DNA of 64,000 nucleotides from Amphritea sp. (GTDB lineage: Bacteria > Pseudomonadota > Gammaproteobacteria > Pseudomonadales > Balneatricaceae): NCBI RefSeq assembly GCF_016744155.1, contig NZ_JADGEW010000013.1, positions 1 to 64,000 of the forward strand. Direction: 5' to 3'. The position numbers and the translations under genes were made by a program. The first letter of the stretch is position 1. Each line of letters starts with the position of its first letter. Of this stretch, positions 27,536 through 62,615 are shown piece after piece. A model generated the notes under the pieces. It was not told the origin of the DNA, did not search any database, and worked only from the letters and a program-made list of their open reading frames with translations.

Positions 27536-28231
27536 TTATACCGCCAGGTACTGACGAATCAGATCTTCACTGAGGTTATCCATCCGGTCGCTGGCCACGA
27601 CACGGCCTCTTTCTACCAGTCGAAACTCCTCGCCTACTCGACGCGCAAAACCCAGTTTTTGTTCGACCAGAATCACGGTAAGCCCCTCCTCCTTGTTGAG
27701 CTTTAAAATGACATCTCCGATCTGTTGAACAATGTTCGGCTGAATCCCTTCGTTGGGCTCATCCAAAATCAAGACTTTCGGCTCCAGCACTAGTGCGCGA
27801 CCAATCGCCAACTGCTGTTGCTGCCCACCCGACAGGTCGCCCCCACGACGCTGAAGCATCTCTTTTAAGACGGGAAACAGTTCGAAAATCTTTTCCGGTA
27901 TCTCTTTTGCGCCATCCTTGCGGATGGGTAAACCTACCTTAAGATTTTCTTCAACGGTCAGCAGCGGAAAGATATCCCGCCCTTGGGGCACATAACCGAT
28001 GCCAGCAGGTGCCCGAAACTCAGCTTTCTTGTTCTGCAACGGCTCACCTTCCAGCAGAATTTCGCCATTCTTGACCGGTAACAGACCCATGATGCATTTC
28101 AGCAAGGTGGTTTTACCGACCCCGTTACGCCCCATAATGCAGGTACAAGACCCCGGCTTAATATCCAGATTGAGATCCCAGAGAATCTGCGTGCCACCAT
28201 AAAACTGATTAACGTTTTTAATACTGATCAT
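27536..28231 (-). CDS. urtE: Urea ABC transporter ATP-binding protein UrtE
   Basis: 231 residues of the LivF type. Walker A GRNGVGKTTLL near residue 35, signature LSGGQQQQLAIGRALV, Walker B LILDEP followed by NEGIQP, which marks UrtE. It overlaps urtD by 4 bp. Drives high-affinity urea uptake with UrtD and the UrtBC permease. Confidence 0.95.
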   Translation of the reverse strand: MISIKNVNQFYGGTQILWDLNLDIKPGSCTCIMGRNGVGKTTLLKCIMGLLPVKNGEILLEGEPLQNKKAEFRAPAGIGYVPQGRDIFPLLTVEENLKVGLPIRKDGAKEIPEKIFELFPVLKEMLQRRGGDLSGGQQQQLAIGRALVLEPKVLILDEPNEGIQPNIVQQIGDVILKLNKEEGLTVILVEQKLGFARRVGEEFRLVERGRVVASDRMDNLSEDLIRQYLAV

Positions 28232-31846: not shown

Positions 31847-31948
31847 GGGGGATCTCCGTTCGGGTAAGGCAGATAAGCGCTTGCTAAAACACTTTATTCA
31901 AAGCGTTTTATGAAGAACTCTTTAGATGAATCTTGGCCTATGAGTAAT

Positions 31949-31972
31949 GCAGGCTTCCGAATAGAAGCCTGC
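31949..31972 (-). other. Intercistronic hairpin downstream of urtA
   Basis: A perfect 9-bp stem GCAGGCTTC/GAAGCCTGC with a 6-nt loop, 27 bp beyond the urtA stop. No U-tract follows on the minus strand, so it is more likely an mRNA-stabilising or partial-termination element that lets urtA exceed the downstream genes. Confidence 0.75.
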
Positions 31973-31999
31973 TTTATAAAAAGCCTAAGCAATCAAGCC

Positions 32000-33286
32000 T
32001 TAGAAATTTTGACCAGAACAGGTCTTAGTGACTGTGTTGTAGTTACCGCAAGAGATAGGCGCAGTCCAATCTGCAATCAGATCTTTTGAACCTGGCAGGA
32101 AGTCAGACCAAGCATCACCGGGCACAACACCTTCAGTTTCCCAAACCACTTCAAGCTGACCATCTTCCTGAATCTCACCGATCAGTACCGGCTTGCTCAG
32201 GTGGTGGTTCTTGTTCATGTAAGCCATACCACCGGTCAGGTTTTCAGCTTCCTGGCCAATCATCGCCTGCTCAACCGCATCAACTTCAGTAGAACCAGCT
32301 TTTTCAACTGCCTGAGTCCACATCTGGAAACCGATGTAAGTCGCTTCCATAGGGTCGTTAGTTACACGATCAGGGTTACCAGTGAACTCTTTCCACTTAG
32401 CGATAAAGGCGGTGTTCGCATCGCTTTCAACACTTTGAAAGTAGTTCCAGGCAGCCAGATGACCGACCAGAGGCTTAGTATCAAGACCAGACAACTCTTC
32501 CTCACCTACAGAGAAAGCAACCACTGGAATATCTTCAGCAGAGATACCCTGGTTACCCAGCTCTTTGTAGAAAGGAATGTTAGCGTCACCGTTAATCGTC
32601 GACACTACCGCCGTCTTCTTGCCTTCAGCGCCAAACTTTTTGATATCAGAAACGATAGACTGCCAGTCAGAATGACCGAAAGGTGTGTAGTTGATCATGA
32701 TATCTTCAGGGGCTACACCTTTAGCGACCAGGTAAGCTTCAAGAATCTTGTTAGTGGTACGTGGGTAAACATAGTCAGTACCCGCCAGTACCCAACGCTC
32801 AACACCGATATCATTCATCAGGTAATCAACCGCAGGAACCGCCTGCTGGTTTGGCGCAGCACCGGTATAGAATACGTTTTTAGAAGACTCTTCACCCTCA
32901 TACTGAACCGGGTAGAACATCAGACCGTTCAGTTCTTCAAGCACCGGCAACGCAGACTTACGTGATACGGAAGTCCAGCAGCCGAAAATAACATCAACCT
33001 CATCTTTAGTTAGCAACTCACGGGTCTTTTCCGCAAACAGAGGCCAGTTTGAAGCAGGGTCAACAACCACAGCTTCAAGCTGCTTTCCTAACAAACCACC
33101 CTTCTTGTTCTGCTCTTCAATCATCATCAGAACAGTATCTTTCAGAGTCGTTTCTGAAATCGCCATCGTGCCGGAAAGAGAGTGCAGTACACCTACTTTG
33201 ATGGTATCGCCAGCCATCGCGCTAGCGCTCAGTACCGACGCACTCAACGCAAGCGCCATACCTGAAACCAGATGTTTTATCTTCAT
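32000..33286 (-). CDS. urtA: Urea ABC transporter substrate-binding protein UrtA
   Basis: 428 residues with a signal peptide (cleavage after ASAMA) and a mature start GDTIKVGVLHSLSGTMAISE, the UrtA signature, plus VIFGCWTSVSRKS and PVQYEGEESSKNVFYTGAAPNQQ. It captures urea in the periplasm. First gene of the urea island, with 280 bp of upstream intergenic DNA before the YHS gene. I could not find a convincing sigma-54 promoter, though nitrogen control is usual for urt. Confidence 0.96.
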   Translation of the reverse strand: MKIKHLVSGMALALSASVLSASAMAGDTIKVGVLHSLSGTMAISETTLKDTVLMMIEEQNKKGGLLGKQLEAVVVDPASNWPLFAEKTRELLTKDEVDVIFGCWTSVSRKSALPVLEELNGLMFYPVQYEGEESSKNVFYTGAAPNQQAVPAVDYLMNDIGVERWVLAGTDYVYPRTTNKILEAYLVAKGVAPEDIMINYTPFGHSDWQSIVSDIKKFGAEGKKTAVVSTINGDANIPFYKELGNQGISAEDIPVVAFSVGEEELSGLDTKPLVGHLAAWNYFQSVESDANTAFIAKWKEFTGNPDRVTNDPMEATYIGFQMWTQAVEKAGSTEVDAVEQAMIGQEAENLTGGMAYMNKNHHLSKPVLIGEIQEDGQLEVVWETEGVVPGDAWSDFLPGSKDLIADWTAPISCGNYNTVTKTCSGQNF

Positions 33287-49409: not shown

Positions 49410-50297
49410 TCAGCGAATCAACAACTCTGCTTCTTTGCTAATCCAGTCGATAAACGTGGCGGTTTTTCTATCGGGTTCTTTGAAATCGGGCCAGGCTATG
49501 TAGTAGGCATAGTCGGTTAACTCCAGATCAAACAATCTTACCAGCGACCCCTCCTTTAATTCTTTCTGCAGTAGCAGCGGACAGCCGAGCATAATACCTT
49601 GTCCATTCAAAATGGCCTGCAAACGCACATTGGTATCATCGTATATCAAGCCGCTTTCACAACGTATTTTCTCCACTCCGGCCAGATCCAGCCACTCACG
49701 CCAGGGGGCATAATCCGTGTCATGAATGAAGGTGTGTCCCGCCAGATCTTCGGGGTGGTGAATCCTGCCGGCCTCTTTAAGAAAAGCAGGACTGCAGACG
49801 GGCGTCAGATCCCCAGGAATAAGCCTCTGCGCTTCTGCACCTGGCCACTCCCCTTTACCCCAGAGAATAGCCGCATCAATATTCTCAGCGCTGAAATCAG
49901 GGGCGCTATTTCGATGAATAAGATCCACCTGTATTTCAGAATTTTTAACCCAGAAATTTTTCAGCCGCGGTGCGAGCCATGAAACTGAAAAAAACGGCCG
50001 CAATGCGATATGCAGATTGGCCTGTTGTTTCACTTCCATCACATTACGCACGGCACTGGCAATGGCCTTAAAAGGCTCATCCAGAGAGGTATAAAGACGA
50101 TAACCCTCATCAGTGAGTAACATACTACGGCTGGTACGACTAAACAGCCGTACTTCCAAGTACTCTTCCAAGGTTTTGATCTGATGGCTTACCGCTGAAG
50201 GTGATACCAATAATTCCTCAGCAGCTTTGGTAAAGTTAAGATATTTGCCCGCCACCACAAAGGTTTTCAGGGCATTCATCAGCGGAATATAAGCCAT
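49410..50297 (-). CDS. LysR-family regulator (GcvA-like), left bracket of the Rieske locus
   Basis: 295 residues: HTH with FTKAAEELLVSPSAVSHQI and a substrate-binding domain with GEWPGAEAQRLIPGDLTPVC. AAGGAG lies 7 nt before the ATG at 50297; a TTG one codon earlier is not needed. It follows the amidase gene by 11 bp on the same strand, so it is probably part of that operon and autoregulated. It is a paralogue of the LysR at 61722-62615: about 41 of the first 58 residues are identical. GcvA-type regulators often respond to amino-acid-like ligands. Confidence 0.88.
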   Translation of the reverse strand: MAYIPLMNALKTFVVAGKYLNFTKAAEELLVSPSAVSHQIKTLEEYLEVRLFSRTSRSMLLTDEGYRLYTSLDEPFKAIASAVRNVMEVKQQANLHIALRPFFSVSWLAPRLKNFWVKNSEIQVDLIHRNSAPDFSAENIDAAILWGKGEWPGAEAQRLIPGDLTPVCSPAFLKEAGRIHHPEDLAGHTFIHDTDYAPWREWLDLAGVEKIRCESGLIYDDTNVRLQAILNGQGIMLGCPLLLQKELKEGSLVRLFDLELTDYAYYIAWPDFKEPDRKTATFIDWISKEAELLIR

Positions 50298-50308
50298 CAA
50301 GCTACTCC

Positions 50309-51610
50309 TTAACTCATTGTTGTCTCAGCCCAACGGGCCAACGTTAGTAACTGGTCGTCTTCACGGGGGCGGCCAATAAACTGTAGTCCCAGTGGTAAAC
50401 CTTGCTCATCGGTCATCCCCGGCAATGTCACTACGGGCAAACCTAGCACCTGCCAGGGCCGACTCATATGCGGCTGTCCCGTCGCAGTTTGACCGCAAGG
50501 TGCAACACCCGGTGCAGCCGGTGCCAAGATGGCATCAACATCCAGATGATCAGGGTTGGACCAGAGCCAGTTACCGATCTTAGATACTGTCTGTAAGGAA
50601 TCCAGATAGGTCTCGCGCGCCATGCCCCGGCCTAACTCAAACAGCTGTTGTAAGGCTTCAGATAGCTGTTCGGGATGGCCCGCTTCGTACGTCAGGTTAC
50701 GGGTCGCTTCCCAGGCCATGATTTTATGATGATGCTCGACTAAGCGGCGAATAAGGTCGCAGCTATGCATTTCGATGATCTCAGCACCCTGTTGCTGCAG
50801 ACGACTACTGAATTGTTCTAGTGCCTGATCCATCGCCGGGTCACTATCTCCTACCGAACTACCCTTACACACCAGAATCCGATAGGGGCGATCGGGTACC
50901 GTTGATGAGACAAGCGGTTGCTGCAATAAAACACTACGCAACAACTCGATGTCTTCCACCTGGCGGGCAAAGAGCCCTAAGGAATCCAGTGACTGGGCCA
51001 GCGGCTGTACACCCCGCAGGGAATATTCGCCACGGCTGCCGACATAGCCAACCACGCCACAATAAGCGGCCGGACGAATAACCGATGCCGCCGTTTGTGA
51101 ACCTACAGCAGCCGGTACCATAAAATCTGCAACCGCCGCGGCAGAACCACTGGATGATCCACCGGGTGTTCGCCCCAGATCTCTAGGGTTACAGGTTTTA
51201 CCCGGTTTGAAATAAGCAAACTCAGTAGTGACCGTTTTACCCGGCACCATCGCCCCGGCCTTGGTTAACAAATTAACGCAGCTGGCATTATCTACCGGCT
51301 GACGGCCCCGATGGATAGTCGACCCCATCTCGGTAGCCATGCCCGCCGTATCGATAATATCTTTGATGCCTACAGGTAAACCCTGCAACAGGCTAGCGGT
51401 ATAGAAATCTTGCCGATCAAAATACTGTTGCAGATACTGTTCCCGGGGTAGCAGATAATGCCAGGCCCCAACCTCAGCCTCCCGGGCATCGATCCGGTCA
51501 TAATAGGCATTGATCAGATCAACAGGGGAAACTTCTCCCTCGGCGATCATATCGAGAGCACGGCGTAAACTTAACGTCTTCAGGTCGGTGTTCAGCGTCG
51601 GGCTACTCAT
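50309..51610 (-). CDS. Amidase-signature-family amidase
   Basis: 433 residues with the full Ser-cisSer-Lys triad: Lys83 (PVGIKDIID), cis-Ser154 (GGSSSGSAAAVA) and nucleophile Ser176 (SQTAASVIRPA). The glycine normally preceding the nucleophile is Ala here. The family hydrolyses C-N bonds in amides, ureides or allophanate; no C-terminal allophanate-hydrolase domain is present. The start overlaps the DUF1116 gene by 4 bp, so the products probably act together. Substrate unknown. Confidence 0.9.
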   Translation of the reverse strand: MSSPTLNTDLKTLSLRRALDMIAEGEVSPVDLINAYYDRIDAREAEVGAWHYLLPREQYLQQYFDRQDFYTASLLQGLPVGIKDIIDTAGMATEMGSTIHRGRQPVDNASCVNLLTKAGAMVPGKTVTTEFAYFKPGKTCNPRDLGRTPGGSSSGSAAAVADFMVPAAVGSQTAASVIRPAAYCGVVGYVGSRGEYSLRGVQPLAQSLDSLGLFARQVEDIELLRSVLLQQPLVSSTVPDRPYRILVCKGSSVGDSDPAMDQALEQFSSRLQQQGAEIIEMHSCDLIRRLVEHHHKIMAWEATRNLTYEAGHPEQLSEALQQLFELGRGMARETYLDSLQTVSKIGNWLWSNPDHLDVDAILAPAAPGVAPCGQTATGQPHMSRPWQVLGLPVVTLPGMTDEQGLPLGLQFIGRPREDDQLLTLARWAETTMS

Positions 51611-52791
51611 AGCCCGGCCTCATCCAATACATTACGGAAGAAGCTCACAGGAACATCCACCACACCCCCTCCGATACGACCGGACTCGCCTCTATCTTCA
51701 ATCATTCCCAGCAACACCATAGGGCCGCCTTGGTTTTCTACCACCTGACGGGCAGACGTCATCGCCGGACGAGAACCAAAACCTATCAGAGTCCCTGACA
51801 ATGCTTTTTCTGGACGACTCAGTGCATCCTCAGGCAGATACGCTTTAAGGCCTTCATAGGATGCAGTCGCCGTATTCAAAACCTGACCACCCAGGCCAAT
51901 GAAATCCACCACCGCACTATCACCTATCGCGCCAACAGCACGTCGACCGGTATGGGCTGCATCAATAGCCCCTTTAACTTCTGGCGCGGCCATCGTAATC
52001 CAAAGCCCCGGCTTAGCAGCAACCTGAACACCAAACTCATAACCATTACCTGCTGCCTTGGTAATCAAAGACGCACCTTCGATACCTTCTGCCGCCGACA
52101 TCATCAGGCTACTGGAAGCCATCCAGATATTCAGTGCGAACGCCATCGCCCCATTCAAAAAGACTTCAATATCTTCAGGAATATCGTCACTAGTGGCCTT
52201 AAATAGCTGATCTGCGATCAACGCAGAGCCGGCTATTGTGCGTCCATGGCAGTCATCACCATCACCCAACGCAGCCGCTATCACGGGTAACAGATCAATA
52301 GGTTGCTCTAAACGGTTAACTATCCAGTCACTCAGTTCGCCATTCAGCCAGCTTAAGTGCGTTTGCAGTTCAGGATCTAACTTGCCTAAACGGGTACAGT
52401 GCACCATTCCTTCATTTAGGACTGAATATTTTCTGGCGGCAGGCTTATTCTTATCGCAGATGACCATTAGCTGCATCGACGGTGAAACCGCGCCCGCCAA
52501 CGGTACCACTATGTTGTGATCCTGCGCTGCTTCGACCCGGATCAATCCCTGATTAATCATCTGTCTGGCCTGATCATAGCTATCAGCCCACCCTTCCCAC
52601 ACCGCGCCTACACAAAGCGAATTCATCACCGGTGCTGGAATCGTATCCACAGCGCTAAAAGGAGGCCCCGCATGCAGCAACAATTTAGCTTCATCAGCGA
52701 TAACATCGCTTACCCGACACATTCCGGTCCATTGAGGATGGCATTCAGAGACCCGATCAAACGCGGTCTGATCAGCAGCAGATAACAACAT
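51607..52791 (-). CDS. DUF1116 protein (AllG/YlbE-like)
   Basis: 394 residues. LLLHAGPPF near residue 37, GAVSPSMQLMVICDK, LNEGMVHCTRLG, GDGDDCHGRTIAGSALI and the GIEGASLITKAAGNGYEFGVQV segment match the DUF1116 family, which includes AllG, a subunit of oxamate carbamoyltransferase in anaerobic allantoin use. The usual partners (AllF/FdrA, AllH and the AllK carbamate kinase) are absent from this window. AGGAG precedes the ATG by 9 nt. Its co-translation with an amidase suggests a ureido, carbamoyl or amide intermediate. The family call is by recalled motif pattern and is moderate to good. Confidence 0.75.
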   Translation of the reverse strand: MLLSAADQTAFDRVSECHPQWTGMCRVSDVIADEAKLLLHAGPPFSAVDTIPAPVMNSLCVGAVWEGWADSYDQARQMINQGLIRVEAAQDHNIVVPLAGAVSPSMQLMVICDKNKPAARKYSVLNEGMVHCTRLGKLDPELQTHLSWLNGELSDWIVNRLEQPIDLLPVIAAALGDGDDCHGRTIAGSALIADQLFKATSDDIPEDIEVFLNGAMAFALNIWMASSSLMMSAAEGIEGASLITKAAGNGYEFGVQVAAKPGLWITMAAPEVKGAIDAAHTGRRAVGAIGDSAVVDFIGLGGQVLNTATASYEGLKAYLPEDALSRPEKALSGTLIGFGSRPAMTSARQVVENQGGPMVLLGMIEDRGESGRIGGGVVDVPVSFFRNVLDEAGL

Positions 52792-52904
52792 AGAAATACT
52801 CTCCTGACGGGTTATGCCATCCCACGGATGGCACCCCTTTTTATTATGATACGAGGCAGGACTTACTTAACGATTACTCGGCAGATGCCGATATGGCCGG
52901 AGCC

Positions 52905-53516
52905 TTATTCAGCACGAACCCAGCTTTCACTATTCGCCAACGCTGCTGATTGAGCCACCCGGTTGAGGAAGTCACGCTCGACTGTCGTACCCGGTAGTGG
53001 AGTACCATTGACTTCAACAACAGCACCACCTGCTGGCTGAAAAATAGCAAACATCTCATGTTCACCGGTCTGAGTTTCTTCAGGCGGTAAAGCCACCGCA
53101 AAAGGCTCAGCCAGATCTTTCCAGATCATGCTCAGCGTTGTACCCGTACTCTCAGAATGGGCGATGCAGGCTTGCTGCTTCGGATAATCAGCTTCGGTCT
53201 TGAAACTGGCATCGGCGATATATTCCAGGTTATCCAACGCCACTGCAGGACGGAACAAACCGAAGCGACGGACAAAGTTTTCCACCAGGTACTGAGCCAG
53301 CTCAAGATTATCGGTCAGGCACTTACGCACGGCGCTGCCATCCTCTTTCTGGTATGGATTTTCCAGCACCAGAATCGCTTCACCACGACCGTAATCAGAC
53401 GCGGCTATTCGGAAGTACAGCGACAAAGAAGACCAGTCGCCTTCAGAATCAGTTTTCAGATAGATAAATGGGTTATCACCGGTCCAGTCGACCTTACCTG
53501 TACGGATAGAATTCAT
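52905..53516 (-). CDS. Conserved-looking protein of unknown family, 203 residues
   Basis: I do not recognise this protein. It is soluble, without a signal peptide or membrane segment, acidic, with possible short beta-strand regions (WSSLSLYFRIAAS, GEAILVLENPYQKEDG, GEHEMFAIFQPAGGAVVEVNG). AAGGA lies 8 nt before the ATG, and it sits 113 bp upstream of the DUF1116 gene and 54 bp downstream of the epimerase gene on the same strand, so it is a true member of the operon. A binding or decarboxylase-type role cannot be inferred safely. Confidence 0.8.
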   Translation of the reverse strand: MNSIRTGKVDWTGDNPFIYLKTDSEGDWSSLSLYFRIAASDYGRGEAILVLENPYQKEDGSAVRKCLTDNLELAQYLVENFVRRFGLFRPAVALDNLEYIADASFKTEADYPKQQACIAHSESTGTTLSMIWKDLAEPFAVALPPEETQTGEHEMFAIFQPAGGAVVEVNGTPLPGTTVERDFLNRVAQSAALANSESWVRAE

Positions 53517-53570
53517 AGCATAGATCCTTTAGTCATATTTCTTGTTATTTGCAGGTTGATGATGCGGCTA

Positions 53571-54440
53571 TCAGGCACGCGCTTTAGCTTTAGCCCGCAT
53601 TTGTTCAAAATTAGAAGTTGGCTGCCAGCCAAGCAGTTCTTTGGCCGCTGAACTAGAAAACACAGAGGCGCGCGGGTTTTCTTGAAAACGCCTTGGAATT
53701 GTTACCTCTGGCAGATCACCTATCACATCCGCATACCACTCCAGCGTTGGTTTAGGGTGCGAAGTATCATCCGCGCTGAGGAAGAACGTCCCGAAGCGCA
53801 AACCGTCTGCTTTCAGAGCACAATCAAATGCTGTTGCTACATCTTCAGCGGTTACGTAGTAGAACAACCAGTGACGATCAGGTGCATCAACAAACTCGAT
53901 ATATTGTTCAAGACTTTCATCCAACACGACCGCCAGTGGGCGCAGACAGATCACATCCATATCGGTGCCATCAACAAAACTCTTTGCCATCTGCTCCATA
54001 ACGATCTTGGAAACGCTGTAAGCCTGAACCGGTTTATTCTCATGGTTTTCATCTATCGGCAGAGACACTGGCTGCCAATCCGAACGCATCTCGCTCAGAC
54101 CGCAGGCCGAGACACTGGAACAGAGCACTACTTTCTGTACCTTCATCTCTGACGCCGCTTGCAGAACATGCCAGGTACCGCGCACATTGACGTCGATATA
54201 TTCTTCGGGTGCACAGTTCCAGTCATAGTCCAGTGCCGCCAGGTGTACTACCGCATCAGCACCCTCAAACGCTTTACGTAACTGCGGTAGATCCATCACA
54301 TTAGCTTCTATATATTCAACACCGCTATCTCCCGCAACCAGATCGGCGATGACAACCTCATAACTTTTCAATAACTGGCGGACAACATAGCCCCCCACAC
54401 GACCAGCACCACCGGTCACAACAACACGCTTAATAGACAT
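53571..54440 (-). CDS. NAD-dependent epimerase/dehydratase-family protein
   Basis: About 289 residues of the extended short-chain dehydrogenase type: Rossmann motif VVVTGGAGRVGGYVV (about 6-20), adenine-site ADLVAGDSG, the NAD-site HLAALDYDW, and the catalytic Ser...Tyr-x3-Lys set in CSSVSACG and AYSVSKIVMEQ. The ATG at 54440 has AGGT 6 nt upstream; an ATG at 54467 is in frame. It could oxidise or dehydrate a hydroxylated intermediate made by the Rieske enzyme. Substrate unknown. Confidence 0.87.
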   Translation of the reverse strand: MSIKRVVVTGGAGRVGGYVVRQLLKSYEVVIADLVAGDSGVEYIEANVMDLPQLRKAFEGADAVVHLAALDYDWNCAPEEYIDVNVRGTWHVLQAASEMKVQKVVLCSSVSACGLSEMRSDWQPVSLPIDENHENKPVQAYSVSKIVMEQMAKSFVDGTDMDVICLRPLAVVLDESLEQYIEFVDAPDRHWLFYYVTAEDVATAFDCALKADGLRFGTFFLSADDTSHPKPTLEWYADVIGDLPEVTIPRRFQENPRASVFSSSAAKELLGWQPTSNFEQMRAKAKARA

Positions 54441-54518
54441 AAAGTTACCTAATTTTTTGCTCAGCACTGCAGGGCGGACAATATTTTCCCGCCAGCTCTT
54501 TCGATCAAACAGCTCAGC

Positions 54519-55508
54519 TTAAAGATCCAGAATCAGTTCAGGAGAGATCGCCCGCGAAACACACAGCATCATGAAGTCGTTATCAGCCCTTTCATCTTCC
54601 GAAAGGATAGAATCACGATGATCAGGCACGCCAGATAGCACACCGGTTTCACAGGAACCACAGATACCATCACCACAGGAAGTGGGGATTTTAATACCCG
54701 CTTCACGCAATACCGTCAGTGCCGATGCACCTTCAGGTATACGGATACGCTGTCCGGTACTGTTAATCACCACATCAAACGCAGCTCCGGAGCTGTCCAC
54801 CGGCCCCGCCGCAAAGCGTTCAATATCCAGACTCCAGCTGTCACTGGACTGCTCTGCATATTGCTGCTCTAGCGTATCCAGAAGTCGTTGAGGACCACAG
54901 GAGTAGACCGATGTATCAGCATCGCAGGTGGCTAATAGCCCTGGCAGATCAATGTAACCATCCTCTTTATCACCGTTGAGGGTGATGCGGGACTGATCAT
55001 AATGCGCCAGTTTTTCCAGACAGGACATGCGACTACGTTCGCGAGACAGATACACAAGACGCCAATCTAACCCGTTGGTTTCAGCTTCTTGAATCATCGG
55101 CAACATAGGTGTGATACCAATACCACCAGCGATGAATAGACATTTTTTGCGGGGTTTAAAAGGAAAATGATTACGCGGTTCAGATACTTTCAGCGTATCG
55201 CCCTGCTGAATCTGGTTATGGATAAACAGCGAGCCACCCCGGCCACCTTCTTCGCGCAAAACCGCCACCTGCCACTGACTAGTATCGTTACGATCGCTGC
55301 ACAACGAGTACTGCCGCAATATGACATTATCCACATCAACATTGCCTGCGGCATCAGTACAGGTTTCAAGCGCCAGTTCAATATGTGCACCGGGTTGCCA
55401 TTGCGGTAATGGTTCACCGTTCACAGCGGCCAGTGTCAGTCCTACCACATCTTCAGTCAGTGGCTGCTTTGCAGTCACTTTTACCAATATTTGATTAGTC
55501 GTTGCCAT
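54519..55508 (-). CDS. Oxygenase reductase: FAD/NAD(P) domains plus C-terminal [2Fe-2S] ferredoxin
   Basis: 329 residues in the order of phthalate-dioxygenase-reductase-type proteins: FAD-binding barrel (RQYSLCSD near 65), NAD(P) domain (FIAGGIGITPMLPMI near 125) and a C-terminal ferredoxin with Cys ligands in PTSCGDGICGSC and MMLCVSRA. It carries electrons from NAD(P)H to the Rieske oxygenase encoded upstream, 137 bp away on the same strand. Together they form a two-component (class IA-type) oxygenase. Confidence 0.92.
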   Translation of the reverse strand: MATTNQILVKVTAKQPLTEDVVGLTLAAVNGEPLPQWQPGAHIELALETCTDAAGNVDVDNVILRQYSLCSDRNDTSQWQVAVLREEGGRGGSLFIHNQIQQGDTLKVSEPRNHFPFKPRKKCLFIAGGIGITPMLPMIQEAETNGLDWRLVYLSRERSRMSCLEKLAHYDQSRITLNGDKEDGYIDLPGLLATCDADTSVYSCGPQRLLDTLEQQYAEQSSDSWSLDIERFAAGPVDSSGAAFDVVINSTGQRIRIPEGASALTVLREAGIKIPTSCGDGICGSCETGVLSGVPDHRDSILSEDERADNDFMMLCVSRAISPELILDL

Positions 55509-55645
55509 GAGATCACCCTTTAAAAGCCCCCATCTTCAGACAACGCCGAAGACAGGAATCCGTCTCAAAGCTGGGTCGGCCTGACTGGCATAGAACAACC
55601 AGACCGCCCATCTTTCTTATTACTGGAATCGAATCAACGACCCGT

Positions 55646-56854
55646 TTATTCGGCCTCAGCCAGCTGAGCATCCGCACGTTTATCTTCGGCCCGGTACATA
55701 TCAACTAACCAGTTCTGCAGACGCTGGATAACCTGCTCTTCAGAGGTCAGACGACCACGGGGGGCATGTTTAGAGTGCATACCTTTCTGCATCGCCTTCC
55801 AGGCAAACAGATCCTCTTCCATTACCTGCCACAGATCGTCATGTTCCTGCTGAAAGTTTTTCTGGAAATCATCACGTGCAAGGGTCGATTCTGGATACAT
55901 CCAGGACACTCCATACCAGGATTCGGTCGCACCTTTAGGCAACCAGATGAAAAACTTCACCTTGTCTGGCATCGCCACCAGAAACATATTCGGGGACACT
56001 GTTATATAAGACAGTTGCTCACGTTCCTGATCGGTCAGGCCGGTCATCGGTGGCTGTAGGATAGAACCGGTATGCGTTGGCGCAGCGTCTTTGTGCGGGC
56101 TGATCAGGTTGTATGCCACCAAACCTTTGTCGACATCATTGTACTTAGCCTTCTCATCGACACTACCTGGTGGCAGCGGATACATCTCACCCCATGAACC
56201 ACCATGCAGAACTGAACAGTGGTAACATTCGTCATTGAAAATCTTCCAGTTCCAGTCGAACGCTTCCATTTTCAACGGCTCAAATGAGCGCAACTCAGAC
56301 AACTTATAATTGCCCAGCTGCTCGCCTAAGTTAGCCAAACGATCGCTCAGTGGAGGCAGGCTTTCATCGTAAGTAATAAAGATAAAGCCTTCCCAGATCT
56401 CGGTACGAATCTTCGGCAGACAGACATCTTTAATATTAAAATCTTCTTCATCCTTATCGGTCAGGCCCGGTGCCGTGACCAGTTCACCGCTAGTGCTGTA
56501 AACCCAGGCATGCAAAGGACAGCGCAGCCGACGGGTATTACCCTGACCTTCAACAATCAACATGCCGCGGTGCTGACATACATTCGAAACGACATTAACT
56601 GAGCCACTACGATCACGGATAACGATCAAAGGGTCTTCACCGACATCAATAGTGTAGTAATCACCCGCTTTAGGAATATCATTCGCACGGCCAACACAAA
56701 ACCACTCATGACCCCATACAGCATTCAGTTCGAACTTATAAAAATCTTCACCCGTAAAACATTCTGGTGGTAATGAATAAACTGGACCACCGTCACTATA
56801 ACTAGCATCAAATTCCGAAATAGAGATTGGGCTTTTTATTATTTTTTTAGTCAT
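55646..56854 (-). CDS. Rieske non-heme iron oxygenase, large (alpha) subunit
   Basis: 402 residues. Rieske [2Fe-2S] ligands Cys93-x-His95 (NVCQHRG) and Cys112-x2-His115 (CPLHAW), then the catalytic domain with non-heme Fe ligands His212 and His217 in NDECYHCSVLHGG, and the bridging Asp/Glu208-209; the third ligand is probably in HDDLWQVMEED. The ECYHC style recalls the quaternary-ammonium oxygenases (GbcA, CntA, stachydrine demethylase) more than aromatic-ring dioxygenases, and no beta-subunit gene is present. So demethylation or hydroxylation of a small N-containing compound is plausible. It diverges from the glyoxalase-like gene. Confidence 0.93.
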   Translation of the reverse strand: MTKKIIKSPISISEFDASYSDGGPVYSLPPECFTGEDFYKFELNAVWGHEWFCVGRANDIPKAGDYYTIDVGEDPLIVIRDRSGSVNVVSNVCQHRGMLIVEGQGNTRRLRCPLHAWVYSTSGELVTAPGLTDKDEEDFNIKDVCLPKIRTEIWEGFIFITYDESLPPLSDRLANLGEQLGNYKLSELRSFEPLKMEAFDWNWKIFNDECYHCSVLHGGSWGEMYPLPPGSVDEKAKYNDVDKGLVAYNLISPHKDAAPTHTGSILQPPMTGLTDQEREQLSYITVSPNMFLVAMPDKVKFFIWLPKGATESWYGVSWMYPESTLARDDFQKNFQQEHDDLWQVMEEDLFAWKAMQKGMHSKHAPRGRLTSEEQVIQRLQNWLVDMYRAEDKRADAQLAEAE

Positions 56855-56994
56855 CTCAGCAAGACTCCCGTCGCGATTATTAATATATTAATTGATTAAA
56901 AATATTACTTATCAGCTAAAAACTAACTCAGTAAAACTTTAAATCCAGAAACTTAATAGTCTCAAAAAAACAGCACTTTAAGAACAAAGTATAT

Positions 56995-57050
56995 TTCAAA
57001 GATCTATGAGCCAAGCTCAAAGAAGAGCCTATCTTAATTGGATCTTTGAA
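56995..57050. promoter_or_regulatory. Inverted repeat in the Rieske/glyoxalase divergent region
   Basis: TTCAAAGATC (56995-57004) and GATCTTTGAA (57041-57050) are perfect 10-bp arms 36 bp apart in the 343-bp region between the two divergent genes. A small hairpin (GAGC-CAA-GCTC) lies between them. The arrangement suits a dimeric or looped operator. No ORF in the gap. Confidence 0.5.
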
Positions 57051-57197
57051 TTTCACTCACACCACCAAAGATACACTGCTATTACGGGGCCTTAAAGCAA
57101 GTATAATTCAATGATAGTTGAGCACAGCTAAGGGTAAAATCATGCATTTATCTTGTAAAATTCTCATCATTAACAATCGATTTAAACGAGCACAATA

Positions 57198-57608
57198 ATG
57201 TCTGAAAAAATTAAATTTAATCTTGACCACACGATGATAAGAGTTGCTGACCTTGAAAAATCTTTAGATTTTTACATTCGCATAATGGGCATGAAAATAT
57301 TAAGAAAAAACGAATACCCTGATGGAAGGTTTACTAATGTTTTTATTGGATACGGCCCTGAAAATAAAACCACAACAATCGAGATAACAAATAACTGGGA
57401 TATAAAAACACCTTACGATAAAGGTGAAGCTTATGGCCATATTGCATTCAATGTTGAAGATGTATTAGCAGCGATGAAATATCTGGAAGCTGAAGGCGTA
57501 ATTATAAAAAGCCCAGCTAAATCGATGAATCACGGCACCCGGATGCTAGGTTTTGTATTCGATCCAGACGGTTACATTATTGAGCTGAACGAACCATTGA
57601 ACAGCTAG
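57198..57608 (+). CDS. Glyoxalase-I-like VOC enzyme
   Basis: 136 residues resembling lactoylglutathione lyase (GloA): LDHTMIRVADLEKSLDFY opens the first betaalphabetabetabeta module, with metal ligands His11, Glu62, His81 (GEAYGHIAF) and Glu129 (GYIIELNEP). GloA isomerises glutathione hemithioacetals of methylglyoxal-type aldehydes. It is richer in A and T than its neighbours. A shared bidirectional terminator separates it from uspA. As the Rieske gene's divergent partner it may detoxify an aldehyde product of the pathway, which is inference. Confidence 0.85.
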   Translation: MSEKIKFNLDHTMIRVADLEKSLDFYIRIMGMKILRKNEYPDGRFTNVFIGYGPENKTTTIEITNNWDIKTPYDKGEAYGHIAFNVEDVLAAMKYLEAEGVIIKSPAKSMNHGTRMLGFVFDPDGYIIELNEPLNS

Positions 57609-57634
57609 CCTAGCCAAAACGACAAGACAGATAC

Positions 57635-57663
57635 AAAAAAAGCCGGCAAAAGCCGGCTTTTTT
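57635..57663. terminator. Bidirectional intrinsic terminator
   Basis: GCCGGC-AAAA-GCCGGC with an A-run before and T6 after (57642-57663), between the convergent glyoxalase-like and uspA genes. It works in either direction. Confidence 0.9.
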
Positions 57664-57692
57664 AATACTCAGTTGATGTTGAACAACCTGAA

Positions 57693-58199
57693 TTAACGGT
57701 TGTAATCTTTGCCTGTTGGAACGACCAAGACTGGCACTTTTGCTCTCTTAATCACTTGCTGAGTGGTATGGCTCTGACTATGTAAGCCCAGTTTATTTTC
57801 AGTACCCATAACAATCAGATCAACCTGCTCCTGTTTCGCCGTAGCCAGAATAGCTTCATCATGATTGCCTTCAACCACTTTCGGCGTGACTTTCATTTTG
57901 ATCGTTATATCCAGATTCTCTAGCTCTTCATCAAAGAACTTTTGAACCCGTTCTTCCATCTGCCCCATCACCTTTGAGATCCCTTCATCATGCACCTTTT
58001 TCACCAGATCTTGAGGCAGATACTGACGAATCAGCGCTTCACCCAGCTCGCCCACCGGGTTGATCACGTGCAACATTACCAATTCAGCCTGGTTTTGCTG
58101 CGCCAATTGAATGGCATGACGATAAACAGAACGGGTATAAGGCCCCAACGAAGTCGTATACAAAATTTTATTAATTTGCGGCAAGCTCATTGTTTTCAT
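57693..58199 (-). CDS. UspA-family protein of the TRAP operon (TeaD-like)
   Basis: 168 residues with a universal-stress-protein fold: ILYTTSLGPYTRSVYRHAIQLAQ, AELVMLHVINP, VDLIVMGTENKLGLHSQSH and VPVLVVP. The canonical ATP motif G-x2-G-x9-G(S/T) is only partly met (GTENKLGLHSQSHTTQ), so nucleotide binding is uncertain. It lies 3 bp after dctM, as TeaD follows TeaC in the ectoine TRAP operon of Halomonas, where it modulates transport. A regulatory role on this transporter is inferred. Confidence 0.87.
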   Translation of the reverse strand: MKTMSLPQINKILYTTSLGPYTRSVYRHAIQLAQQNQAELVMLHVINPVGELGEALIRQYLPQDLVKKVHDEGISKVMGQMEERVQKFFDEELENLDITIKMKVTPKVVEGNHDEAILATAKQEQVDLIVMGTENKLGLHSQSHTTQQVIKRAKVPVLVVPTGKDYNR

Positions 58200-58202
58200 T
58201 CC

Positions 58203-59507
58203 TTACATCATATTCGGCAGGAACAATACGACCTGCGGGAAAAAGCTGACAATCACTACTGCCAAACACATCAGTAAGAAAAACGGGAATGCCGCCTTTA
58301 CTACTTTACCAATCGACTGACCGGTCAGACCCTGCAAAATAAACAAGTTAAAACCAACCGGTGGAGTCATCTGTGCCAACTCAACCATCAGTACCAGAAA
58401 TACCCCATACCAGATCGGATCAAATCCGGCCTGTAAAATCAGCGGCAGTGTAATTGGCAGGCTCATTACAATGATAGAAATACCATCGAGGAAGAAACCC
58501 AACAAAATGTAAAACAGAGCCAGAATCCCTAGTAACGCATAAGGGGACAAGGCCAGGCTCTCTATCATTTTCACCAGCTCAACTGGAATATGCAGATAGC
58601 CGATAGCCGTCGACAAAAACGCGGCTGAGATCAGAATTGAACACACCATGCAGGAGGTTTTTACCGCCCCCATTGCCGCTTCAATAACGATGTCCCAGGA
58701 GAAGCTACCCATACAGATAACCAGCACAAAGGTTGCTGCCACACCGACCGCTGCGGCTTCCGATGGCGTTGCGATACCGCTATAAATACCACCCAGTACC
58801 AGAAAAATAAGGGTAATTATCGGTATCAGATCTTTTAGACCACTCAGCAGCCGTCTCAGCGTCAGCTTTTCTTCCGAACGGGGCGCTAACTCAGGGTTAA
58901 TCGTGCAACGAACGATAATGTAAGAGGAATACAAAAAAGCGACTAGCAGACCCGGCATAATACCTGCTGCAAAAAGCTTCGCTATCGAAACTTCGGCCAA
59001 CACACCGTAGATAATCATCACTATTGACGGTGGAATCAGCAGTCCTAAACTACCGGCACCCGCCAGCGAACCTACCGCCAGTGAATTGTCATAACCACGC
59101 TCAGCAAGTGCTGTTGTCGTGATTTTACCCACCGTAGCTGTCGTCGCAGAAGTAGAACCACTCACCGCGGCAAATAGGGTACAACCCAACACATTAGTAT
59201 GTAGTAACCGACCCGGCATCCACTGCACAAACGGTGAAAGGCCACGGAACAACCGGTCAGAAATATCAGTACGGAAGATAATTTCTCCCATCCAGATAAA
59301 GAGGGGAATGGCGGACAACTCCCAGGCACTGGAACTGCGCCAGATGACAGACCGGGCAATATAACCCACCCGATCAAGTGGAAAATCAGCGATCAGGGTC
59401 AAACTTGTTATTGCGACCAAAAACAGGCCAACAAACACCCAAACCCCAACACCAAGAAACAGTATGATAAGGGCAAGCATGATGCCCATTGTCATTAAAA
59501 CGTCCAT
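58203..59507 (-). CDS. dctM: TRAP transporter large permease subunit (DctM family)
   Basis: 434 residues with about twelve membrane segments; SGSTSATTATVGKITT, AGSLGLLIPPSIVMIIYG and LVLMVELAQMTPPVGFNLFILQG are DctM signatures. Part of the dctP-dctQ-dctM-uspA operon. The transported compound is unknown, but transport and oxygenation genes lie next to each other. Not closely similar to the dctM at 18714. Confidence 0.92.
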   Translation of the reverse strand: MDVLMTMGIMLALIILFLGVGVWVFVGLFLVAITSLTLIADFPLDRVGYIARSVIWRSSSAWELSAIPLFIWMGEIIFRTDISDRLFRGLSPFVQWMPGRLLHTNVLGCTLFAAVSGSTSATTATVGKITTTALAERGYDNSLAVGSLAGAGSLGLLIPPSIVMIIYGVLAEVSIAKLFAAGIMPGLLVAFLYSSYIIVRCTINPELAPRSEEKLTLRRLLSGLKDLIPIITLIFLVLGGIYSGIATPSEAAAVGVAATFVLVICMGSFSWDIVIEAAMGAVKTSCMVCSILISAAFLSTAIGYLHIPVELVKMIESLALSPYALLGILALFYILLGFFLDGISIIVMSLPITLPLILQAGFDPIWYGVFLVLMVELAQMTPPVGFNLFILQGLTGQSIGKVVKAAFPFFLLMCLAVVIVSFFPQVVLFLPNMM

Positions 59508-59546
59508 AGCAGACTCTCTTATAATTGTTATAGTTGCGACAGTAGG

Positions 59547-60086
59547 TCAGTCTTGCTCACTGAGCAGTCGCTGGCCTGAAACAACCCGCACAACGTAGGC
59601 GAGCATCTGAATAATAAAGATCGCCAGCCCCAGTAAAACAAAGGCTTCTGGAATCCACAGAGGTACCGCAGCGATAGTCTCGCTGGTTGAACCCCGCTCA
59701 ATATTTCGGACAACACTCTTCCAAAAATACAGGGCGATATACGAAGTCAGTACCAGAGCGGCACTCACACAAAGGATCTCGATAATTTGACGACCAAGCC
59801 TACTGCGAACCCGGGTCAGCAGAATATTCACTCGGATTAGAGTATTGGTTTCAAAGGTATAGCCCAACGCCATAAAGGTCATTGCCGCAACACCGTAGCC
59901 AACAAATTCATCCAGAACAAAAGTTGAAGTACTGAAAAAAGCCCGCAACGATATCTCTAAAATTACGTGCAGAGTCATACCGGCCATCAGCATTACCGCC
60001 AGCACTGCCCCAGCTTTAGCTAAAAATGAAGCGAAGCGGATAAACAGCGCAGCTAACAACTGCAAAACATTTGAATCGGTTCTCAT
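59547..60086 (-). CDS. dctQ: TRAP transporter small permease subunit (DctQ family)
   Basis: About 179 residues with four membrane segments and the family pattern LEISLRAFFSTSTFVLDEF and GYTFETNTLIRVNIL. I start at ATG 60086, the beginning of homology; the frame is open to 60170 and the extension is not membrane-like. It is separated from dctP by a terminator-like hairpin. Confidence 0.88.
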   Translation of the reverse strand: MRTDSNVLQLLAALFIRFASFLAKAGAVLAVMLMAGMTLHVILEISLRAFFSTSTFVLDEFVGYGVAAMTFMALGYTFETNTLIRVNILLTRVRSRLGRQIIEILCVSAALVLTSYIALYFWKSVVRNIERGSTSETIAAVPLWIPEAFVLLGLAIFIIQMLAYVVRVVSGQRLLSEQD

Positions 60087-60184
60087 AGCCACACCCGTCT
60101 TAACGTTTGTTATTGTTATGACCGAAGCGGATGACCAGGCACAATAAGCCCGTACCACATCGGCAAGCACAGAACAGTTCAGAT

Positions 60185-60216
60185 TAAAAAAGCAGACCGG
60201 GCGATTCCCGGCCTGC
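60185..60216 (-). terminator. Terminator-like hairpin between dctP and dctQ
   Basis: On the minus strand GCAGGCCGGG pairs with CCCGGTCTGC (one G-U pair) around a 5-nt loop and is followed by six T residues, 23 bp after the dctP stop. Inside the operon it should reduce dctQM expression relative to dctP. Confidence 0.82.
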
Positions 60217-60238
60217 GTAGTGAAACAGACAAACAGAC

Positions 60239-61255
60239 TTAGTTAGAAGCAACCTTCTTGGCTACCGCAGCACGATACTGAGACAGTAATTCTTCACCTT
60301 TAGGACCCATCTTCTTCACCCATTCCTGAATCACAGGCTGAGCCGCAGACTGCAGCTCTGAACGGAAGTTAGTAGGCACATCTTCAACAATAGTCAGACC
60401 CTTTTCACGGCCAGCGGCATAAGCTTCCTGAACCACGTTGCTGGTGTTATTCCAGACATGTGCTTCGGTCTCAGTCGCCGCGGCAGTCACTGCTTGCTGC
60501 AACTCAGGAGAAAGGCCATTCCAAGTATCCAGGTTCATAGTTATCAGGTTAATAGTGCTGTCGTAGTTAAGCGCAGTGAAATGCGATACATAGTCATTAA
60601 AACTACCGCTCAGACCGGCTTCGATTGAAGTCAGTACACCATCGATACCGCCAGTACTCAGCTGCGGTACGATATCCGCCCAGCTCAGCTGAATCGGTGA
60701 AGAACCAGCATTACGAAACACCTTAGTACCGTTAGCGTCATAGGTGCGCATTTTCAGGTTATTGACCGCTTCGTTATTAGTCAGTGCTTCCTTACCCCAC
60801 AAACCACTTGAAGGCCATGGAGATGCGTACAACAATTTCTGATTATACTTAGCCAGTACACGCTGATACTCAGGTTTAGCCACATCGTACAATGTTTTAG
60901 CTTCCTCAGTATTCGAGCTCAGGAAAGGCAAAGAAGACAGTAGGAAGATTGGATCAACACCCCCTAGTGGCGGAATAAAGGTATTCGCCAACACAACAGC
61001 GCCGTCGCCTACCGCATCCAGCTGGTCTTTAGATTTCAGACCCAGAGCACCACCAAAGTGATGCGCAATTTCAATTTCACCCTTAGATGTCTTCTTCAGC
61101 TGAACACCAAAGTATTTGTCACCCTCACCCTGCACTGAAGTTGAAGGATATTCGTTAGGCATATCCCAGATCACTGTTCCAGCGCTGGCTGGCAATGCCA
61201 AGGCAACCGATAAAACTGCAGACAGACCCAATGTAGTAGTTATTTTTTTAATCAT
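60239..61255 (-). CDS. dctP: TRAP transporter solute-binding protein (DctP family)
   Basis: 338 residues with a Sec signal peptide (cleavage after PASA) and a mature start GTVIWDMPNEYP. LKMRTYDANGTKVF near residue 165 carries the family Arg that normally binds the ligand carboxylate. It captures a carboxylate-containing solute for DctQM. First gene of the operon, with a long 465-bp upstream region before the right-hand LysR gene. That region contains a perfect palindrome but no other gene. Confidence 0.92.
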   Translation of the reverse strand: MIKKITTTLGLSAVLSVALALPASAGTVIWDMPNEYPSTSVQGEGDKYFGVQLKKTSKGEIEIAHHFGGALGLKSKDQLDAVGDGAVVLANTFIPPLGGVDPIFLLSSLPFLSSNTEEAKTLYDVAKPEYQRVLAKYNQKLLYASPWPSSGLWGKEALTNNEAVNNLKMRTYDANGTKVFRNAGSSPIQLSWADIVPQLSTGGIDGVLTSIEAGLSGSFNDYVSHFTALNYDSTINLITMNLDTWNGLSPELQQAVTAAATETEAHVWNNTSNVVQEAYAAGREKGLTIVEDVPTNFRSELQSAAQPVIQEWVKKMGPKGEELLSQYRAAVAKKVASN

Positions 61256-61581
61256 TGTCGTATCCCAAATTGTCGAACCACTTACAGCAGCTCAAATATT
61301 ATTATTATTGACAGGGCATTTGAGGATCAGCAGTAGAACTGCTTTAGACTAATCCACAAAACTCTTCTTCAACAAAGAACTTCCAGATACCGGCGAGGTA
61401 GTTATTTTCTTCATCTGTAAAGTTGAAGTGATCTGACCTTTTCAGCCGATTCCTTAGATCCAGATCAATAATGTCACAATTTTTTCGCCTGACCATGAAG
61501 GGGTACTCAAGGAACTGTGAGCTGGATTCATACCAAGTAAAATAAACTCATAGCCATAAATAAAAAAACGTTGAGAGCTCC

Positions 61582-61597
61582 CTTGATATATATCAAG
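61582..61597. promoter_or_regulatory. Perfect palindrome upstream of dctP
   Basis: CTTGATATATATCAAG is a perfect 16-bp palindrome in the 61256-61721 gap, 326 bp before the dctP start and 124 bp beyond the LysR stop. It is a candidate operator. The rest of the gap shows no gene. Confidence 0.4.
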
Positions 61598-61721
61598 ACG
61601 TTGTTTTCATTATAAAAACGGACACACCAGCACTTATGAGAGGAGTAAAAAGGGAGACATAGCGGCGTTAAAACAGGCTAAAACAACCGCTAATTTGTGA
61701 CTTCAATGAATAAAATTGACC

Positions 61722-62615
61722 CTACTGTGAGAAAGACTTGTCATCGGTTTGCTGCAAAATCCAGTTAACAAAGGTTTCCATATTACGGGTCAACTGCATT
61801 TTTTTAGGGTACACCAGGTAATAGGAGTAGGTATCCAGACAGATATCAAACAACTGCACCAATCGGCCTTCTTCCAGATCCCGCTTAAGCAAGGTTGGAC
61901 AACCTAACATGATCCCCTGACCATTGATGATGGATTGCACCCGGACATTCGTATCGTCGATAATCAGATTGGCCTTACAACTAACATTACCCGCACCGGA
62001 CTTCTCCAGCCAGGCATCCCAGGCGGAACGATCCTCATCATGAATCAAGGTATAATCACAGAGATCAGCAGGCGTTTTGGGCCGCCCCTGTTGTTCTATA
62101 AGACTGGCGCTGCAGATAGGCGTCAGATCCCCCGGCAGTAAAAACTTGGCCTCCATATCCGGCCAGTCCCCTTTGCCCCAGACAATACCCAGATCGACAT
62201 TATCCGTCATGAAGTCCGGTACTTTAATGGTATGAGTCAGGTCGATCTCAATTTTTGGGTTAAGCCCCCAGAAATTATTCAATCGCGGGGCCAGCCAGGC
62301 ACTCGACAGAAAAGGCCGTAAGGCGATATTGAGCGACTCCCGCCCCCGGTTATGCAGGGTGTCTTGAAGCGCCCTGGCGATCTGATCAAAAGGCCCTTCC
62401 AACGCGGCATGCAGATGCGCACCATCGATAGTAAGAGTCAATGTACGGTTTTGGCGAATAAACAGCTTAAAACCAAGATAATCTTCCAGCACCCGAATCT
62501 GATGACTCACCGCCGAAGGAGAAACCAGCAGATCCTCGGAGGCTTTAGTAAAGTTAAGGTAATGCCCTGCGACTACAAACGTTTTTAACGCATTCAACAA
62601 AGGTAGGTGAAGCAT
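61722..62615 (-). CDS. LysR-family regulator (GcvA-like), right bracket of the Rieske locus
   Basis: 297 residues with the same build as the LysR at 49410: FTKASEDLLVSPSAVSHQI and KGDWPDMEAKFLLPGDLTPIC. The pair closely resemble each other in the HTH (about 41 of 58 residues identical), so they may bind similar operators. It lies upstream of the TRAP operon on the same strand, its likely target. Confidence 0.9.
   Translation of the reverse strand: MLHLPLLNALKTFVVAGHYLNFTKASEDLLVSPSAVSHQIRVLEDYLGFKLFIRQNRTLTLTIDGAHLHAALEGPFDQIARALQDTLHNRGRESLNIALRPFLSSAWLAPRLNNFWGLNPKIEIDLTHTIKVPDFMTDNVDLGIVWGKGDWPDMEAKFLLPGDLTPICSASLIEQQGRPKTPADLCDYTLIHDEDRSAWDAWLEKSGAGNVSCKANLIIDDTNVRVQSIINGQGIMLGCPTLLKRDLEEGRLVQLFDICLDTYSYYLVYPKKMQLTRNMETFVNWILQQTDDKSFSQ

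Follow-up and report, generated by a model that had tools for sequence, protein, structure and literature searches.

Which compound is handled by the gene block between positions 49,410 and 62,615 of this stretch of Amphritea sp. DNA, and do its genes serve a single pathway? The stretch analyzed, hereafter the window, comprises 64,000 nucleotides of contig NZ_JADGEW010000013.1. The block encodes a tripartite ATP-independent periplasmic (TRAP) transporter (DctP, DctQ and DctM), a universal stress protein (Usp), a glyoxalase-like protein, a Rieske oxygenase and its reductase, a short-chain dehydrogenase/reductase (SDR), a 203-residue protein, a DUF1116 protein, an amidase and two LysR-type regulators (Table 1). 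An earlier note had described it as a catabolic locus with carbon–nitrogen chemistry, a description that our results support. Each of the 13 genes listed there is an open frame in the window, at the claimed place and in the claimed order, and the family assignments agree with the Pfam and NCBIfam results.

Our best explanation, held at about even confidence, is a two-unit, LysR-controlled regulon that serves a small, nitrogen-containing cyclic acid (lactam, cyclic imide or N-heterocycle type), which would be imported, oxidized beside the nitrogen, ring-opened and split by the amidase. If true, the locus represents an unmapped route for nitrogen recovery from small ring compounds in marine and soil bacteria. 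Clusters with unknown substrates are common; here, an unassigned locus is resolved into a module whose proposed substrate class is narrow and testable and two of whose components are uncharacterized, and the reading of its DUF1116 protein is corrected.

A conserved catabolic module

Conservation of the gene order had been proposed as a check in the earlier note. The catabolic block is retained in six further genomes (G916, G918, G921, G927, G1012 and the Amphritea metagenome-assembled genome contig L004), five of which probably belong to the same genus, Amphritea, with 59–99% identity to the window block per protein. The order of the catabolic genes is identical in loci L042 to L046 and in L004, over the reach of each stretch. 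The L004 contig stops inside the DUF1116 gene, so that the amidase and LysR1 are not visible there; L004 and a contig of the same-genus genome G925 both break at DUF1116 residue 249, which suggests a single genome. LysR1 is missing from L044, and in L045 (G916) a LysR2-like gene (82%) occupies the LysR1 side. The TRAP–Usp unit adjoins the catabolic block in five of the six relatives. The exception is G916, where an aldehyde dehydrogenase (ALDH)–NCS1 permease–GMC dehydrogenase set replaces it, which would fit uptake of a corresponding ring alcohol and its oxidation to the acid. Within the host family, DUF1116 is found at E 1e-10 or better in 9 of 116 genomes, and the close type (63–100% identical) in seven, the window's own counted; a scan of genome contigs with DUF1116 gave one locus only.

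Beyond these relatives, alpha- and betaproteobacteria also carry the catabolic core, combined with different importers. Four plasmid records carry the 203-residue protein: two of Paracoccus aminovorans, one of Variovorax and one of Ruegeria conchae. The P. aminovorans plasmid (L056) has the order LysR–Rieske–reductase–SDR–203-residue protein–DUF1116–VOC–amidase together with an ATP-binding cassette (ABC) importer. Identities to the window proteins are 61% for the Rieske oxygenase, 47% for the reductase, 54% for the SDR, 55% for the 203-residue protein, 43% for DUF1116, 42% for the amidase and 37% for the glyoxalase-like VOC protein, whose gene here sits within the operon. The same core is present in Variovorax, in genome G950 and on the R. 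conchae plasmid, the last with a tandem pair of 203-residue genes. G1130 holds the Rieske, amidase and 203-residue genes, with no DUF1116 within its 19.9-kb stretch. G1213 (L138) has a Rieske gene, ABC importer genes, two 203-residue genes and an FmdA-type amidase/formamidase; no GatA-type amidase was found at this locus.

In a tree of the 203-residue family (42 rows), the 11 Rieske-linked rows form a single group with support 82/84, and none of 500 shuffles was as low. Likewise, 8 of the 13 rows of the amidase tree come from Rieske–203-residue loci and form a single group (support 95/98). That both proteins from Rieske loci group on their trees suggests that the genes travel as a module. Seven independent Rieske-linked cases can be counted: the window group, L047, L056, L058, L059, L138 and L142. 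Across 44 loci with a 203-residue gene, a Rieske gene lies within 10 kb in 13, an amidase in 16 and DUF1116 in 11, in a non-random sample of loci of at least 8 kb, some of them obtained via DUF1116. The window and its close relatives contribute 7 of the 13 Rieske cases, 6 of the 16 amidase cases and 7 of the 11 DUF1116 cases. The block is a real conserved catabolic module, and its patchy occurrence across classes and on plasmids is enough to call it mobile.

Two further plasmids carry related genes. On a plasmid of Mesorhizobium (L068, 9950–11085), a Rieske gene related to that of the window is fragmented and neighbors a Tn3 transposase. A Rhodococcus ruber plasmid (L057, 282–15559) encodes two DUF1116 proteins, a Rieske oxygenase with reductase, a formate dehydrogenase set and malate synthase G; the products of this pathway may be formate and glyoxylate.

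A DUF1116 type distinct from AllG

The DUF1116 protein had been called ureide-type, a reading in which the locus serves ureide catabolism and the protein forms part of an oxamate carbamoyltransferase. Consistent with this, the Pfam name of the domain is AllG. Residues H40, E66, D179, H182, N249, D291 and S292 are common to the window protein and the AllF-linked group. The E. coli enzyme of the allantoin pathway is, however, shown in an excerpt of PMC11326118 as AllF, AllG and AllH together. Queries with AllF/YahF and AllH/YahE (E 1e-3) gave no match in the 64-kb window or in 20 other loci without FdrA, while in the control FdrA-linked loci they were found in 9/9 and 8/9, respectively. Carbamate kinase is absent from all 21 loci without FdrA, the window's included, and present in 8 of the 9 FdrA-linked loci. 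In the window's own genome, the search for AllF returned only a 22% partial match to a 293-residue frame. Furthermore, the window protein has Q, G, D and T, respectively, in place of H90, R248, E180 and N185, which are invariant in the AllF-linked group.

The tree agrees with this separation. Of 65 DUF1116 matches, 42 rows were left once copies had been removed, with L010 and L038 too short for context. All 19 FdrA/AllF-linked rows fall on one side of a branch with support 100/99 and the window protein on the other, in a tree whose several long branches leave the deep order unsure. Two rows for which no FdrA was seen, L009 (the protein of L015) and L010, fall on the FdrA-linked side. By these tests, the window protein falls outside the AllFGH carbamoyltransferase, although it may bind an AllG-like substrate, and the ureide label is not supported. 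The FdrA-less DUF1116 loci L049, L051 and L065 include an HpxZ-like gene of the oxalurate pathway, which counts for the ureide reading; overall, we give this reading only a very slim chance. HpxWXYZ, which we take to act in oxalurate/oxamate hydrolysis, and the L049 and L065 clusters resemble our locus in having an amidase adjoining DUF1116 and an oxygenase or xanthine dehydrogenase (XDH) nearby, but their amidases lie on another branch and the partner is HpxZ-like rather than the 203-residue protein.

FdrA lies within 10 kb of DUF1116 in 9 of 30 loci; the other 21 represent 15 lineages when the window and its six close relatives are counted once. Rieske or XDH genes adjoin DUF1116 in 12 of these 15 lineages and in none of the 9 FdrA-linked loci, which were scanned for these two types only, so that 12 versus 0 is the sole controlled oxygenase contrast. 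In the remaining three lineages, a molybdopterin oxidoreductase (L012) or a flavin hydroxylase (L015) is adjacent and a 2-oxoglutarate oxygenase (L050) is one gene away. A Rieske gene is present in 8 of the 15 lineages (long context), and 6 of these 8 also have a GatA-type amidase; the earlier note had staked its reading on the amidase, DUF1116 and Rieske genes not being seldom together, and its reading survives on this point.

DUF1116 thus splits into the known AllG type and an uncharacterized, oxygenase-adjacent type. We suggest tentatively, at appreciably less than even confidence, that the FdrA-less protein, with or without the 203-residue family, is a new C–N bond-cleaving enzyme and not a carbamoyltransferase. 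It would open rings after Rieske, XDH-like, flavin or 2-oxoglutarate oxygenases, as a shared bacterial plug-in for N-heterocycle breakdown. In riboflavin catabolism (LumABCD/LumJ), a Rieske oxygenase similarly opens an oxidized N-heterocycle, according to an excerpt of PMC12746152; that oxygenase has two subunits, unlike ours, and the term DUF does not appear in the excerpt. Among the literature matches listed, no title or abstract opening links DUF1116 to a Rieske enzyme; one of these matches, PMC12625717, mentions DUF1116 in the text available.

G916 carries a second DUF1116 cluster (L049) with an amidohydrolase, a DUF1116–HpxZ fusion, an amidase, a gamma-glutamyltransferase-like protein, a Rieske oxygenase and a reductase. 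It shares contig C9 with the module (L045, 4636–9192), at a distance of about 21 kb.

The 203-residue protein family

The 203-residue protein is not the orphan that it had been taken for: a wide-profile search of the class of genome G670 (inferred to be Alphaproteobacteria) detected its family in 41 of 385 genomes. Rarity had been indicated by a one-sequence search (2/194) and a narrow profile (2/398), the own genome included in both, and was overturned by the wider profile. Carried by roughly one in ten of the sampled genomes of this class, the family has no Pfam entry: 12 members gave nothing better than E 0.059 against Pfam, the window protein has no NCBIfam match, and the family profile found no credible match in the PDB (best E 0.081). 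Most members lie without a nearby Rieske or DUF1116 gene, so the family is not specific to this pathway. Members are adjacent to 5-oxoprolinase/hydantoinase genes in L126 and L134; in L146, a HyuA gene is located some 4 kb from the member.

The P. aminovorans member (L056, 12001–12606) is annotated as an NAD-dependent dehydratase, with which the Pfam scan of the family disagrees; this label is likely a misannotation. Kinship with the SRPBCC protein that occupies the same slot in XDH loci was considered, and no match was found.

The importer

The closest PDB matches of DctP are 2pfy (116.7 bits), 6wgm (112.2 bits) and 2pfz (105.5 bits), with the next at 68.9 bits; we take 2pfy and 2pfz to be the pyroglutamate-bound DctP proteins of Bordetella pertussis. 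By eye, the three chains and the window DctP have WPxxG at one position, and the next two matches are without it. A longer form, PWPxxG, was reduced to WPxxG, as one of the three chains has A for the first P. An Arg of the window DctP aligns with an Arg of the solved chains, presumably the one to which carboxylate binding is assigned in PMC4646407, in support of the carboxylate substrate that had been proposed. Crystallization of two B. pertussis DctP proteins with pyroglutamate is reported in the available text of PMC5812351. From its closest chains, WPxxG and the aligned Arg, the window DctP is predicted to be of the pyroglutamate (DctP6/7) type. HyuA/HyuB oxoprolinase/hydantoinase genes, often found with DctP6/7 transporters, occur no more than 3 kb from DctP in 5 of the 7 relatives opened (of 27 plasmid records), with a carbon–nitrogen hydrolase in one of the others and nothing comparable in the last; this proximity counts for the reading that we favor.

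A more distant DctP match, 2vpn, is presumably TeaA. The window DctP is much nearer to the pyroglutamate group, although the order of the TRAP genes followed by a Usp gene is that of the TeaABCD ectoine transporter of Halomonas elongata, where teaD lies behind teaABC (PMC2964678, in part).

The type of importer also bears on a vitamin-derived heteroaromatic acid, such as 4-pyridoxate or a thiamine pyrimidine carboxylate, of which G916 would use the alcohol form. The GMC alcohol dehydrogenase, ALDH and NCS1 (nucleobase/thiamine-type) permease in the TRAP slot of G916 would suit such a substrate, as would the NMT1/THI5-like ABC genes that adjoin two distant FdrA-less DUF1116 loci (L015 and L050). 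The GMC and ALDH proteins, however, score below every equivalog cut-off shown, the DctP type favors a lactam, and we know of no vitamin pathway that employs these genes; we hold a vitamin-derived substrate to be quite improbable.

In Ponticoccus alexandrii (L070, 4083–13275), a TRAP–HyuAB cluster whose DctP is of this type precedes a Rieske gene, likewise with ECYHC.

The Rieske oxygenase and possible methylated substrates

The oxygenase has the CXH-CXXH cluster site, the E/D-X2-H-X4-H iron site and the catalytic domain of Rieske non-heme iron oxygenases, and the amidase has the PF01425 domain and the Lys-Ser-Ser motifs of the amidase signature family. The ECYHC motif reported in the earlier note was confirmed and aligns with that of carnitine monooxygenase. 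The mononuclear-site residue is Glu in the window and Paracoccus and Asp in the other five carrier lineages (L047, L058, L059, L138 and L142). The methylated nitrogen that had been allowed for in the substrate is possible; within the window, the one feature that points to it is this site type.

One such possibility is betaine demethylation, in which the Rieske pair demethylates the nitrogen of a quaternary ammonium compound or N-methyl acid and the remainder is handled by the other genes. The mononuclear-site Glu is as in carnitine monooxygenase, and GbcA is the best NCBIfam match of the oxygenase, but at 125.6 bits the cut-off of 670 is not reached; the GbcAB and CntAB systems share the two-component organization and the ECYHC site with ours and differ in the linkage to amidase, DUF1116 and 203-residue genes. 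In G916, the neighboring GMC protein passes a choline dehydrogenase-named subfamily model (681 versus 605); neither it nor the ALDH protein passes the betA and betaine-aldehyde models. A four-gene sarcosine-oxidase-like set lies near the R. conchae copy, but all 12 genomes tested, carriers or not, have SoxA-like proteins, and this family, to which Mgd presumably belongs, is therefore uninformative as a marker. Considering also the Asp-type enzymes of other carriers, and that we know of no demethylation pathway requiring an amidase, DUF1116 and a 203-residue protein, we regard betaine demethylation as rather unlikely.

Amphritea is a marine genus, which favors a second methylated candidate, homarine (N-methylpicolinate) or a related pyridinium acid. 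Its ring would be opened oxidatively and an N-formyl group removed by the amidase to give N-methylglutamate. The FmdA-type amidase of G1213 and the formate dehydrogenase of R. ruber L057 suit the loss of a formyl group, and the sarcosine-oxidase-like genes near the R. conchae copy fit as well. The homarine operon is reportedly named homABCDER. A conserved homarine pathway is the subject of a 2026 title cited in the available part of PMC13390433, and Mgd participates. The pyroglutamate type of DctP argues against this substrate, which we consider distinctly unlikely; within the literature searched, our gene combination is new, and the 2026 pathway is the main threat to this novelty.

A shared promoter motif

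The sequence GCTCA-N7-TTGA-N6-CTT has three exact matches in the window, all on the same strand, two before the Rieske gene and one before dctP, against 0.41 expected with one mismatch allowed. The two LysR proteins, proposed earlier to be paralogs, are 52% identical and would bind this shared motif. A shorter pattern has seven matches in the own genome, three of them at this locus, against two for the reversed control. Both promoters of L042, L043, L046 and L004 contain it, as does the Rieske promoter of L044 and L045. Exact matches to the full motif number five in four carrier genomes, four of them in these promoters, and one each, located elsewhere, in two non-carriers. With two mismatches allowed, L046 is above chance (7 versus 1.5 matches).

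These data bear on whether the TRAP–Usp and Rieske–amidase units are unrelated operons that merely neighbor each other. The G916 catabolic genes without this TRAP transporter and the different importers of other carriers would be expected if so, but the units stay together in 5/6 relatives and the shorter motif is found in both promoters of the four loci above, which leaves mere neighborhood a slim chance.

Proposed pathway

The order Rieske, SDR, 203-residue protein, DUF1116 and amidase fits hydroxylation, redox change, ring opening and amide hydrolysis. In the regulon that we favor, DctPQM would import the ring acid, with Usp probably regulating the transporter, as has been proposed for TeaD. 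The Rieske oxygenase and reductase would hydroxylate the carbon adjacent to the ring nitrogen, and the SDR would oxidize or reduce the product. The 203-residue protein and the FdrA-less DUF1116 protein would then convert it to an open-chain amide, from which the amidase would release ammonia or an amine, the rest feeding central metabolism. For 5-oxoproline, general chemistry predicts that hydroxylation of the alpha-carbon would give the ring form of 2-oxoglutaramate, cleavable by an amidase.

Several points weigh against this reading. We infer the substrate class and the order and chemistry of every step, and no result shows a substrate. In a less biased set, the 32 longer-context loci among the matches of the 41/385 search, Rieske genes are found in 2, amidases in 5 and DUF1116 in none. 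The AlphaFold model of the 203-residue protein, built from the window and L004 rows only, has a pLDDT of 39.7 and is of no use for a fold search. In G916, the best DctP is 49% identical and located elsewhere; since the catabolic genes occur there without this TRAP transporter, the importer can be uncoupled from the pathway, and DctP may bind a compound other than the Rieske substrate. HyuA/HyuB are absent from the window block, which has Rieske–amidase genes instead, and H65 and H66 are near copies of a single locus. The motif was derived by aligning these same promoters, so that its window statistic is partly circular; L044 has no exact match before dctP, and L044 and L045 are not above chance with two mismatches (3 versus 2.0 and 2.2). 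The unlike Rieske types of the carriers imply that their substrates may differ, and the Glu-type site is that of betaine demethylases, because of which the betaine and homarine readings stay under consideration.

Layout of the locus and neighboring genes

Table 1. Coordinates of genes and sequence elements of the locus in the window
Feature	Position	Strand	Remarks
LysR-type regulator 1 (LysR1)	49410..50300	-	8 bases 3' of amidase
GatA-type amidase	50309..51610	-	PF01425; Lys (VGIKD), GGSSSGS and GSQTAASVIRP motifs retained
DUF1116 (Pfam AllG) protein, FdrA-less group	51607..52791	-	4-base overlap with amidase start
203-residue protein, family without name; Rieske-linked group	52905..53516	-	No Pfam, NCBIfam or credible PDB match
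NAD(P)-dependent epimerase/dehydrogenase-like SDR	53571..54440	-	Listed frame begins at 54467
Rieske reductase	54519..55508	-	FAD/NAD domains and C-terminal 2Fe-2S ferredoxin
Rieske oxygenase alpha subunit	55646..56854	-	CXH-CXXH at residue 93; ECYHCSVLH at 209 (Glu, not Asp)
Promoter motif GCTCA-N7-TTGA-N6-CTT, copy closer to Rieske gene	56987..57011	-	
Promoter motif GCTCA-N7-TTGA-N6-CTT, copy more distant from Rieske gene	57099..57123	-	
Glyoxalase I-like VOC protein	57198..57608	+	H/E/H/E metal ligands, read by eye
UspA-type universal stress protein, last gene of TRAP unit	57693..58199	-	
TRAP large permease DctM	58203..59507	-	
TRAP small permease DctQ (uncertain start)	59547..60170	-	
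Terminator-like stem (10 pairs) and T-run, dctP/dctQ gap	60192..60216	-	Consensus match only
TRAP binding protein DctP, predicted pyroglutamate (DctP6/7) type	60239..61255	-	
Promoter motif GCTCA-N7-TTGA-N6-CTT, upstream of dctP	61498..61522	-	
LysR-type regulator 2 (LysR2)	61722..62615	-	

The divergent glyoxalase gene divides the region into the TRAP–Usp unit and the Rieske-to-amidase unit. Its product, earlier described as glyoxalase-like, passes the glyoxalase I model TIGR00068 (126.8 versus a cut-off of 120) but not the narrower models NF007629 (115.5 versus 246) and NF050074 (91.2 versus 165). Terminator-like matches in the window are above chance (21 versus 12.8 expected), and the strong stem between dctP and dctQ could yield binding protein in excess of permease. 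Promoter consensus matches are below chance (12 versus 19.4 expected) and were not used.

Elsewhere in the window, urease-like and urea-type ABC transporter genes, recognized by eye at 21719–33286, suggest that the host could use released urea. A second TRAP transporter, FAD-dependent amino-acid-oxidase-like genes and a LysR gene (14745–21660, by eye) probably form another amino-acid-like catabolic set. Finally, an XRE-type regulator frame (3162–3974, minus strand) has sixteen near-perfect 7-base GTTGCTC repeats (3834–3945) at its 5' end; as the repeat unit is not a multiple of three, expression of this regulator could switch with copy number.

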